Positions 30,298 through 53,955 of a stretch of 55,905 nucleotides of DNA are shown here, in pieces (position 1 is the stretch's first letter; each line of letters begins with the position of its first letter). The notes beneath the pieces were generated by a model, which saw only the letters and a list, made by a program, of their open reading frames with translations, was not told the DNA's origin and did not search any database. The stretch is from Ignavibacteria bacterium. GTDB taxonomy: Bacteria; Bacteroidota; Ignavibacteria; Ignavibacteriales; Melioribacteraceae. The position numbers and the translations under genes were made by a program. The stretch is from contig WPAE01000026.1 in the NCBI GenBank assembly GCA_009773205.1, positions 1-55,905 of the forward strand, given 5' to 3'.

Positions 30298-30317
30298 GAA
30301 CAAATAACAAAGCTGAT

Positions 30318-38795: not shown

Positions 38796-38872
38796 AATGT
38801 TTGTCATTCTGAGGAGCGGAGCGACGAAGAATCTTCGTTTTCTTTCAAATAGACAAAGCTGAAATTCTTTAT
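38775..38872. repeat. Family B MITE-like repeat, truncated copy 4
   Basis: Starts with AGGGCATCTCTAAAAACC and keeps TGTCATTCTGAGGAGCGGAG, then diverges after about 38872; the far end is missing. The remainder of the gap to 39061 shows no gene. Confidence 0.75.
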
Positions 38873-39061: not shown

Positions 39062-39069
39062 TATCTTTG
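39062..39069 (+). promoter_or_regulatory. -7 box upstream of the Cys leader and cysE-cysK
   Basis: TATCTTTG matches TAnnTTTG exactly. The predicted transcription start falls about 8 bases before the leader ATG at 39083. The -33 region is poor, which would fit an activated or weak promoter. Confidence 0.5.
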
Positions 39070-39082
39070 CGGCAGACAAAAA

Positions 39083-39169
39083 ATGCATTATCTCAATAAT
39101 ACATATCGAAACTTTGTAAGAACTGCTTCCTCAAAGGAAACTGCCGCAATTTGCTGCTGTTGTTGTTAA
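39083..39169 (+). CDS. Poly-cysteine leader peptide upstream of cysE-cysK
   Basis: A 28-codon ORF beginning ATG CAT TAT at the predicted 5' end of the mRNA and ending Ala-Ile-Cys-Cys-Cys-Cys-Cys-stop (TGC TGC TGT TGT TGT TAA, 39152-39169). It ends 52 bases before the serine acetyltransferase start. Five consecutive Cys codons directly before the stop of a short ORF in front of cysteine biosynthesis genes is the signature of an amino-acid-responsive attenuator; poly-Cys leaders acting this way are known in mycobacteria. The peptide probably has no function of its own. The word AGGAAACT occurs both in the leader and at the cysE ribosome site, which might allow alternative pairing with GTTCC between them, but the helices are short. 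Confidence 0.7.
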   Translation: MHYLNNTYRNFVRTASSKETAAICCCCC

Positions 39170-39221
39170 TCTAATCTCCGTTCCACTTTAATTAAAATAA
39201 TTTTAAGATAGGAAACTCATA

Positions 39222-40073
39222 ATGGCAAAGAACCATTTATTTGATGCATTTACAAAGGAATTTTTAAGTAAGCGGCAAACTCACGCTTGCACAACATCGC
39301 TAAAGACCGAAACAGTTAATTACTTAAACGAACTGATAGATTTTCTTTTTCCTCATTTTTCAAAAAAGGTTTATTTTGATACAAGCGATGTTATTGCAAA
39401 CATTCAGATACTTAAAAGAAATCTGGCAGAGCTTCTGAAGCAATTGAACGGAAACACGCCCGCCAATATGGATGAGATTGCAGGTTTATTCATTAAAAAG
39501 ATTCCGGAAATTCATAGCATGCTTTGGAAAGATGCGGAAGCAATTCATTCCGGAGATCCAGCTTCCGAAAGTATTGATGAAGTAATCCTCGCCTACCCCG
39601 GCTTTATGGCAATTGTAATTTATAGAATTTCACATGAACTTTATCTGCTCAAAGTTCCAATCATTCCGCGCATTATGTCCGAACACGCGCATCAAATTAC
39701 CGGAATTGATATTCATCCAGGCGCAGATATCGGAAGCCCTTTTTTTATTGATCACGGGACCGGAATTGTAATCGGGGAAACAACAATAATCGGCAAGAGC
39801 GTAAAAATTTATCAAGGCGTTACATTAGGTGCGCTTAGTGTTGATAAATCTCTCGCACAGATAAAGCGGCATCCAACAATTGAAGACGACGTAATCATCT
39901 ACTCTCAAGCTGTAATTCTTGGCGGGAACACAACGATTGGCAAGAACAGCGTCATTGGCGGCAACTCTTGGATTACACAAAGCATTCCACCCAATTCTGT
40001 TGTTTATAACAAAAGCGAAGTAAGAATAAAAACAAACAAAGAATTTGAAGAACCAATCAACTTTATAATCTAA
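39222..40073 (+). CDS. cysE: Serine O-acetyltransferase
   Basis: 283 residues of the EpsC/CysE type: helical N-terminal domain with DAEAIHSGDPAS (about 108-119), then left-handed beta-helix hexapeptide repeats including GIDIHPGADIG and FFIDHGTGIVIGE with the catalytic Asp and His, and GAKVQIL-like turns (GGNTTIGKNSVIGG). It makes O-acetylserine for cysteine synthesis. The C-terminus ends in Ile (NFII), the feature that lets CysE dock its tail in the CysK active site. Eleven bases separate it from cysK. An AGGAAACT ribosome region precedes the ATG. Likely controlled by the poly-Cys leader. Confidence 0.95.
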   Translation: MAKNHLFDAFTKEFLSKRQTHACTTSLKTETVNYLNELIDFLFPHFSKKVYFDTSDVIANIQILKRNLAELLKQLNGNTPANMDEIAGLFIKKIPEIHSMLWKDAEAIHSGDPASESIDEVILAYPGFMAIVIYRISHELYLLKVPIIPRIMSEHAHQITGIDIHPGADIGSPFFIDHGTGIVIGETTIIGKSVKIYQGVTLGALSVDKSLAQIKRHPTIEDDVIIYSQAVILGGNTTIGKNSVIGGNSWITQSIPPNSVVYNKSEVRIKTNKEFEEPINFII

Positions 40074-40084
40074 AAGGATAGAAA

Positions 40085-40993
40085 ATGAAAACGAACAACA
40101 TACTCGATACAATTGGCAACACACCGCACGTTAAAATAAATAAACTTTTTGGCGCCAACGAAGTTTGGGTAAAACTCGAAAGAGCAAATCCCGGAGGAAG
40201 CATTAAAGATAGAATCGCTCTTTCTATGATTGAAGACGCTGAGCGAAAAGGAATCTTGAAAAAAGAGAGCGTAATTGTTGAGCCAACTTCAGGAAACACT
40301 GGAATAGGACTTGCAATTGTTGCGGCTGTCAAAGGCTACGAACTTATTCTCGTCATGCCCGAATCAATGTCGGTTGAACGAAGAAAATTAATGTCCGCTT
40401 ACGGCGCAAAGTTTGAACTAACACCCCGTGAACTTGGAATGAAAGGCGCAATTGCGAAAGCAAATGAAATTGCTGCAAGCAACCCAAATGCTTGGATTCC
40501 TCAGCAGTTCGAAAATGATGCAAATGTGCAAATCCACATTAACGCAACAGCGCAAGAAATATTAAATGATTTTCCAGAAGGATTTGATTATTTGATTACG
40601 GGAGTTGGCACTGGCGGACATATAACCGGCGTTTCAAGAGTGCTGAAGAACAAGTTCCCGAATCTAAAAGTGTTTGCAGTCGAGCCAACTCTTTCGCCCG
40701 TAATTTCTGGTGGAGAGCCGGGACCGCATCCAATTCAAGGTATTGGCGCAGGTTTTATTCCCAAGAATTTAGATACGAGTTTGCTCGACGGAGTTATTCA
40801 AATTACAAAAGAGGAGTCTTTTGAGTTTGCTCAGCGCGCGGCTAAAGAAGAAGGAATCTTCGGCGGCGTTTCTTCCGGTGCTGCATTAGCTGCGGTAAGC
40901 AAAAAACTTTCTGAAAACAATGAACCGAAAAGAGTATTAACTTTTAATTACGATACTGGCGAACGCTACCTCTCGGTTGACGGACTTTTTTAA
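40085..40993 (+). CDS. cysK: Cysteine synthase A (O-acetylserine sulfhydrylase)
   Basis: 302 residues, fold-type II PLP enzyme. The PLP Lys is K41 in GGSIKDR, the substrate loop TSGNTG is at 68-73, the phosphate loop [10 protein letters not shown] is near 176, and GIGAGFIP follows. All family residues are intact. It converts O-acetylserine and sulfide to cysteine. Second gene of the cysE-cysK operon. The ATG at 40085 is preceded by AAAGGATAGAAA. A strong hairpin terminator lies about 160 bases downstream. Confidence 0.96.
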
Positions 40994-41152: not shown

Positions 41153-41172
41153 CCGCCGCAGCAATGCGGCGG
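41153..41172 (-). terminator. Hairpin terminator between cysK and the decarboxylase gene
   Basis: CCGCCGCA-GCAA-TGCGGCGG: a perfect 8-bp GC-rich stem with a GCAA tetraloop (read on plus). On the minus strand it is followed by TTTTGTTT, so it best terminates the decarboxylase gene; it may also stop read-through from cysK. The rest of 40994-41180 has no gene. Confidence 0.75.
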
Positions 41173-53882: not shown

Positions 53883-53955
53883 GCCCCTGTAGCTCAGTGG
53901 ATTAGAGCGTTGGCCTCCGAAGCCATGTGCGCAGGTTCGAGTCCTGCCAGGGGTA
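53883..53955 (+). tRNA. tRNA-Arg (anticodon CCG)
   Basis: The cloverleaf folds as acceptor GCCCCTG/CAGGGGT (one G-U), D-arm GCTC...GAGC, anticodon stem TTGGC/GCCAT (one mismatch) with loop CTCCGAA giving anticodon CCG, and T-arm GCAGG-TTCGAGT-CCTGC. The discriminator is A; CCA is not encoded. It reads the CGG codon. Confidence 0.93.

Follow-up and report, generated by a model that had tools for sequence, protein, structure and literature searches.

Upstream of cysE-cysK in the analyzed DNA (the window, a stretch of 55,905 nucleotides), a 28-codon ORF ends in a run of cysteine codons (Table 1). Judged from comparison of sequences, this leader is very probably a tRNA-Cys sensor for cysE-cysK, and it probably acts as a cysteine-responsive leader-peptide attenuator of the operon, whatever its output. 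The cysteine-sensing role is well supported because 38 of the 40 cysE loci of the same family (f1) carry such a leader, because the related genome G098 has a terminator/antiterminator switch, and because a terminator accompanies 11 of 11 Cys leaders in Bacteroidia. The proposal of the earlier note, that ribosomes stall at the Cys run and so sense charged tRNA-Cys, is thus supported by the f1 loci and by the terminator and antiterminator of relatives.

The transcript probably begins a few bases 5' of the leader ATG, so that every mRNA would first offer the 28-codon ORF. With ample Cys-tRNA, the ribosome would pass the Cys codons, terminate, and depart, and cysE-cysK would be kept low. With scarce Cys-tRNA, it would stop on the Cys run beside the stop codon, and the operon would be expressed.

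The ORF, its ending in Ile and five Cys codons, the TAA, and the 52 bases that separate it from the serine acetyltransferase gene all lie where the earlier note had placed them. The Ile codon occupies 39149-39151, directly 5' of the Cys run. The product of cysK scored 408.7 bits, above the NCBIfam cut-off of 350.95; CysE scored 168.7 bits against TIGR01172, below its cut-off of 210.65, and 165.5 bits against the serine O-acetyltransferase EpsC profile, above the cut-off of 150.

Table 1. Features of the leader and operon in the window
Feature	Coordinates	Strand	Remarks
TATCTTTG, predicted promoter -7 box	39062..39069	+	13 bases 5' of leader ATG
Leader ORF, 28 codons, MHYLNNTYRNFVRTASSKETAAICCCCC-stop	39083..39169	+	ATG at 39083; Cys-ending counterpart in 38/40 family loci
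Five Cys codons, TGC TGC TGT TGT TGT	39152..39166	+	Presumed stall site; TAA 39167-39169 adjoins
Spacer, leader stop to cysE, 52 bases	39170..39221	+	First 30 bases C-rich, G-poor; candidate Rho loading site
cysE, serine O-acetyltransferase	39222..40073	+	ATG at 39222; profile matches
cysK, cysteine synthase	40085..40993	+	Profile match; adjoins cysE in related loci extending that far

The promoter box was assigned by its likeness to TANNTTTG, which we take to be the Bacteroidota-type promoter -7 motif. Of 38 family loci, 8 had an exact TANNTTTG no more than 45 bases from the start of the leader (shuffling gave 1.6), and the distance from box to ATG, 13 bases in the window, was 4 bases in G078, G092, and G116. 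An mRNA 5' end near the leader ORF, with translation from there, is plausible. The leader matched none of the curated Rfam families (riboswitch, T-box); the sole gathering-level match in the window was a tRNA at 53883-53955.

The window's genome belongs to genus g1 of family f1, which the names of the member genomes suggest to be Melioribacteraceae. Relatives of the same genus are Stygiobacter sp. RIFOXYC2_FULL_38_25 (G001, locus L089), whose CysE is 88% identical to that of the window, and Stygiobacter electus (G004, L103).

Two further elements flank the operon. A stretch with CATTCTGAGGAGCGGAGCGACGAAGAATCTTCG lies 5' of the leader at 38796-38839 and presumably resembles a dispersed intergenic repeat of environmental genomes. 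About 160 bases 3' of cysK, at 41153-41172, a hairpin CCGCCGCA-GCAA-TGCGGCGG is terminator-like on both strands and is possibly shared by cysK and an oppositely directed gene.

Conservation of the leader within and outside the family

Leaders were scored as short ORFs ending 40-110 bases 5' of cysE with Cys among the last ten codons. Seventy-one cysE rows were started; L222 and L227 were omitted as they had no tblastn match, and 69 were left (40 in f1, 5 in f2, and 24 in f3). The genomes of the omitted rows, G140 and G115, correspond to L109 (no leader) and L111 (CCCRLCCCC). G104 stands outside the table, having no upstream DNA, and G003 and G002 were taken from a sampling separate from the draw that gave the other family loci. 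An ATG was not found for L183, L226, and some TTG or GTG starts; L183 and L226 were scored as lacking a leader.

In 38 of the 40 f1 upstream regions, the last ten codons held two or more Cys, where base shuffling gave an expectation of 1.28; only G012 and G018 had no Cys leader. At least three were found in 24 of the 40, and two base-shuffle runs gave 0.06 and 0.07. These shuffles ignore the relatedness of the loci, and the CysE tree shows many separate genera. The peptides, 18 to 50 codons long, differ in length and in their N-terminal part but retain the Cys end; in 36 of the 38 loci, at most one codon separates the last Cys codon from the stop.

The DNA between the window and three congeners is conserved unevenly. 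Identity is 58, 52, and 32% in the leader body, 80, 81, and 68% in the spacer, and 80, 80, and 70% at the cysE start. These values bear on whether the ORF encodes a small Cys-rich protein with a function of its own, such as metal or thiol binding, and no regulatory role. Retention of the Cys codons at the ORF end would suit such a protein, but a body less conserved than the spacer, a variable length, a constant place before cysE throughout the family, and the terminator/antiterminator of relatives make it highly improbable.

The earlier note had expected the Cys run wherever related genomes keep cysE. This holds in 38 of the 40 f1 loci, but cysE stands without the run in the other two, in 5 of 5 f2 loci, and in 21 of 24 f3 loci. 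Cys leaders were absent likewise from all 7 cysE loci of other families of the class. In f3, they occur in three loci (G033 and G047, both with CCCCLCCCC, and G098), and genus g52 of that family has cysE and no leader in the loci read.

In L224 and L225 (G033 and G047; f3 genus g28) and in L111, a double run, CCCCLCCCC or CCCRLCCCC, lies 77-80 bases 5' of cysE. The script found no terminator after it in these three loci, which are possibly a separate terminator-free case. Eight loci were flagged and left uncounted: L198, L200, L333, L283, and L307 have their Cys codons wholly or partly 5' of the start, or scattered, and L292, L310, and L280 have them far upstream with no terminator nearby.

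Two leader classes and the relatives with a terminator

The f1 leaders fall into two classes. Class A comprises 24 loci whose ten final codons include 3 to 7 Cys; in 23 of them, no more than one codon stands between the last Cys and the stop. Class B comprises 14 loci with the two-Cys ending Y-[FLYI]-x-T-C-[ILVM]-C-stop, in which T is replaced once by A and once by S, and in G139 two extra codons follow the motif. Some class A endings, e.g., NNCICCCN and RDCICCS, contain a C-I-C core as well.

The class B pattern was found at 36 places in 33 of 146 genomes, and its reversal at 16. Eleven of these places belong to cysE leaders; nine were recognized on reading 30 of the loci, and two (G114, G116) by coinciding position. 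Of the remaining 21 among those 30, all except L248 fall within a longer open frame of at least 125 codons. These counts cover 32 of the 36 places.

In the CysE tree (53 rows), class B forms one side of a branch with support of 62/62, so this grouping is weak. The class A sequences fall into one clade (100/98) together with 12 from f3, of which 11 lack a leader. The CysE sequences of the leaderless f3 genus g52 (L183, L185, L187-L193, L196, L198) are placed inside this poly-Cys clade, for which gene transfer followed by leader loss is the simplest reading.

Class B may use more than codon hunger. Its leaders, and perhaps all of them, could be sequence-specific arrest peptides in which conserved residues preceding the Cys codons work inside the ribosome tunnel. 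The motif is kept in 14 loci, and a C-[ILVM]-C-stop type of ending occurs in 13 of the 40 f1 loci, against 0.02 expected. Entropy in 13 class B loci is 0.90 at the third codon position and 0.40 and 0.36 at the others; since the third position varies most, the peptide is kept. However, class A, including the window, has no such motif, and two Cys codons may be enough for codon-dependent stalling. The constraint on class B may also lie partly in the RNA, because all 13 tabulated loci use TGT for the second Cys. On balance, arrest peptides are quite unlikely.

The class B stop codon tends to fall into a small hairpin (-6 to +30, mean z -1.44, se 0.39; other cuts, z -0.50 and -1.23). The tendency is weak in class A (z -0.50, se 0.25; other cuts, 0.27 and -0.29), and the window leader shows no such signal.

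The CysE of G098 (L174, f3) is nested in the class A clade and groups with that of the window; it is labeled "none" in the tree, as the last-ten-codons criterion misses its leader. In this leader, CCC lies eleven codons 5' of the stop, and a terminator with a mismatch-free 12-bp stem and a T run comes after it. At its end, the leader has CAATCGAAGG, which is exactly complementary to CCTTCGATTG of the terminator region. The terminator (-15.4 kcal/mol) and the antiterminator (-17.5 kcal/mol) use common bases and are mutually exclusive.

Eleven Cys leaders precede cysE in Bacteroidia: L113 (Foetidibacter luteolus), L114, L157 (Bacteroidales), L289, L298, L319, L326, L328, L329, L331, and L342. 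All have a terminator, detected by script in ten and by eye in L289, where the T run is too short for the script; L319 is counted even though its Cys run is far upstream (stop at -156). By eye, L342 has a CCCGCC/GGTGGG stem in place of CCCTTC/GAAGGG and GCGGGG after the stop, so that its candidate antiterminator has changed along with the terminator. Such leaders are a minority, with 5 of 30 cysE loci in family f23 and 3 of 58 in a wider draw (the 58 take in those 7 loci from the class's other families), and none of the Chryseobacterium and Flavobacterium cysE loci examined has three Cys in the last twelve codons.

In these eleven leaders and G098, the last Cys is 3 to 12 codons before the stop. 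The f1 Cys codons, by contrast, lie at the stop. This difference would be expected if the halted ribosome had to sit over the RNA 3' of the stop in f1 but had to leave that RNA free in the terminator type.

Output in family f1 and comparison with described systems

None of the 38 f1 leaders, the window's included, has an intrinsic terminator after the Cys codons; two hairpins that were flagged precede these codons. The window has no exclusive antiterminator either, and no terminator there to exclude. The earlier note had seen a basis for alternative pairing in the word AGGAAACT, repeated in the leader and at the cysE ribosome site. This idea fared badly: the leader copy is missing in L170 (identical in sequence to L003), L002, and L004, and as a group the leaders pair their Cys/stop region with downstream RNA no more than shuffles do (z -0.08, se 0.15, and 0.00, se 0.18), by a measure without shown power because it also missed four terminator-type positive controls. 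The pairing was rejected, moreover, because its sign would be wrong: a ribosome halted at the Cys codons would hide the leader copy and free GTTCC for the ribosome site.

As f1 leaders are without a terminator, shielding from Rho is the most likely output. A ribosome halted at the stop would mask the C-rich, G-poor stretch 39170-39199, in the manner of tna. We favor this masking, tentatively and short of conviction, because a terminator is lacking in f1, the spacer is conserved with C over G, the Cys codons lie at the stop, and the genome has a rho gene (PF07497 above cut-off at one place). The 30 bases after the stop contain 19.3% C and 4.6% G in class A and 27.1% C and 8.8% G in class B. C minus G is 6 in the window and averages 4.42 in class A and 5.50 in class B, versus 1.27 in 90 control upstream regions; the p values (6e-7 and 1e-6) are only indicative because some controls are cysE loci and the loci are related. 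Four terminator-type leaders gave -6, -4, 1, and 2.

Rho-dependent attenuation in tnaC regulates a catabolic operon in response to free tryptophan. The f1 leader would resemble the tnaC type in that the RNA immediately 3' of the stop would be masked by a ribosome halted there, and it differs in that the presumed signal is a lack of charged tRNA. Against the Rho output, base composition is weak evidence and the spacer is short for a Rho site, and the window leader makes the cysE start site 2.8 kcal/mol harder to open, which favors control at the start site.

With the same sensor, RNA pairing could hide the cysE start unless a halted ribosome keeps the site open, a translational output as in mycobacteria. 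The closest described system is said to regulate translation of the downstream gene (PMC9031893). For the window's start site, the opening cost is 8.2 kcal/mol when the leader is present and 5.4 when it is absent, the largest exception in the set. In class B, the start sites have slightly more pairing than their shuffles (z -0.46, se 0.14), and by eye spacer hairpins lie over the ribosome site in a few loci. However, class means are alike with and without the leader (5.23 and 5.34 kcal/mol in class A, 6.78 and 6.49 in class B), and the leader effect in the congeners G001, G003, and G002 is -0.6, -0.8, and +0.8 kcal/mol. The Cys/stop region shows no excess of downstream pairing, as given above, and the whole window leader folds like its own shuffles (z 0.28). 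We hold start-site control to be somewhat unlikely and retain it as a rival because of the window's own opening value.

An effect on mRNA stability, with a stationary ribosome near the 5' end shielding the cysE-cysK mRNA from decay, would agree with a leader close to the predicted 5' end and with the lack of a terminator. It leaves the conserved, G-poor spacer unexplained, and we consider it improbable.

Six mycobacterial polycysteine loci were reportedly described by Canestrari et al. 2020, and in that system a stalled ribosome is said to free the downstream start site from RNA structure. The present leader resembles the mycobacterial ORFs as a short ORF with a Cys run before cysteine genes, with no terminator and a probable start near the mRNA 5' end. 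It differs in its unrelated lineage and peptides, in the Cys run directly at the stop, and in that no general start-site structure was found; only the cysE leader was found in this genome, against the six mycobacterial loci noted above. Poly-Cys leaders are presented as established in mycobacteria in PMC13236596, PMC9031893, and PMC9094748, which cite Canestrari et al. 2020.

In Actinobacteria, Cys leaders without terminators have been predicted, with Rho proposed as one possibility (PMC1262725). They share with f1 the Cys runs near the stop and the lack of a terminator; their possible Rho sites are unconserved, whereas here the spacer is conserved, with C over G across the family. The uORFC-8-2 motif is a Cys leader with a terminator before cysS of Rhodobacterales (PMC8632094). 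It has tandem Cys codons in the leader ORF, as here, and the terminator form of G098 and the Bacteroidia relatives; it differs in its gene, cysS, and from the window in having a terminator. For Flavobacterium psychrophilum, attenuation of amino-acid operons by leader peptides has been mentioned without detail (PMC9723704), and for Bacteroides thetaiotaomicron leader-like short ORFs have been mentioned (PMC7366714). A literature search confined mostly to main texts in open access returned no report of a Cys leader for Bacteroidota or Ignavibacteria.

The leaders described here would extend the range of tRNA-Cys-sensing leader peptides to Bacteroidota, taken broadly as in GTDB. They may form a natural series, in which a single kind of sensor feeds different outputs along one gene lineage; such a series would make terminator-free leader-peptide action testable by comparison. 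A fuller scheme, unlikely when taken whole, would have one cysE lineage with one tRNA-Cys sensor and a swapped output (terminator/antiterminator in G098, Rho masking in f1), with class B as an arrest peptide that halts at or next to the stop according to cysteine supply, the stop often lying in a small hairpin. Class B raises the question of whether a starvation sensor can become an arrest peptide.

Other cysteine runs in the genome

Four consecutive TGY codons are not rare in the 4.14 Mb genome, with 76 places when overlaps are counted, and a chance short ORF might be suspected on that ground. Almost all of these places, however, lie within a longer open frame of another register. Together with the 24 of 40 family loci against 0.06-0.07 expected, because of which we regard the leader as beyond chance, this leaves a chance origin a negligible probability. 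Outside longer frames are the cysE leader, a CRISPR-like array (L022), L024, L061, and L075; the ORF of L075 ends CCCCV-stop, yet the next long frame has the opposite direction.

A scan for three TGY codons followed by a stop counted 110 places, and 60 loci covering 53 sites were read. Three of the 53 sites are outside a longer frame: a cysE leader (L404) and the doubtful L356 and L370. At position 1500 of L356, a short ORF ending ICCC-stop lies 40 bases 5' of a 198-codon frame that looks, by eye, like a GNAT acetyltransferase; whether it is a second Cys leader of the genome is doubtful. Neither scan gave a clear second Cys leader among the loci read, and no plasmid copy of the cysE leader region was found. 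The array in L022 (contig 9 of the window's genome, G000, near 30300) has the repeat GTTTCAATTCTATTGTAGTGCGATTAATAC, and TGTTGTTGCTGT occurs in two of its spacers.
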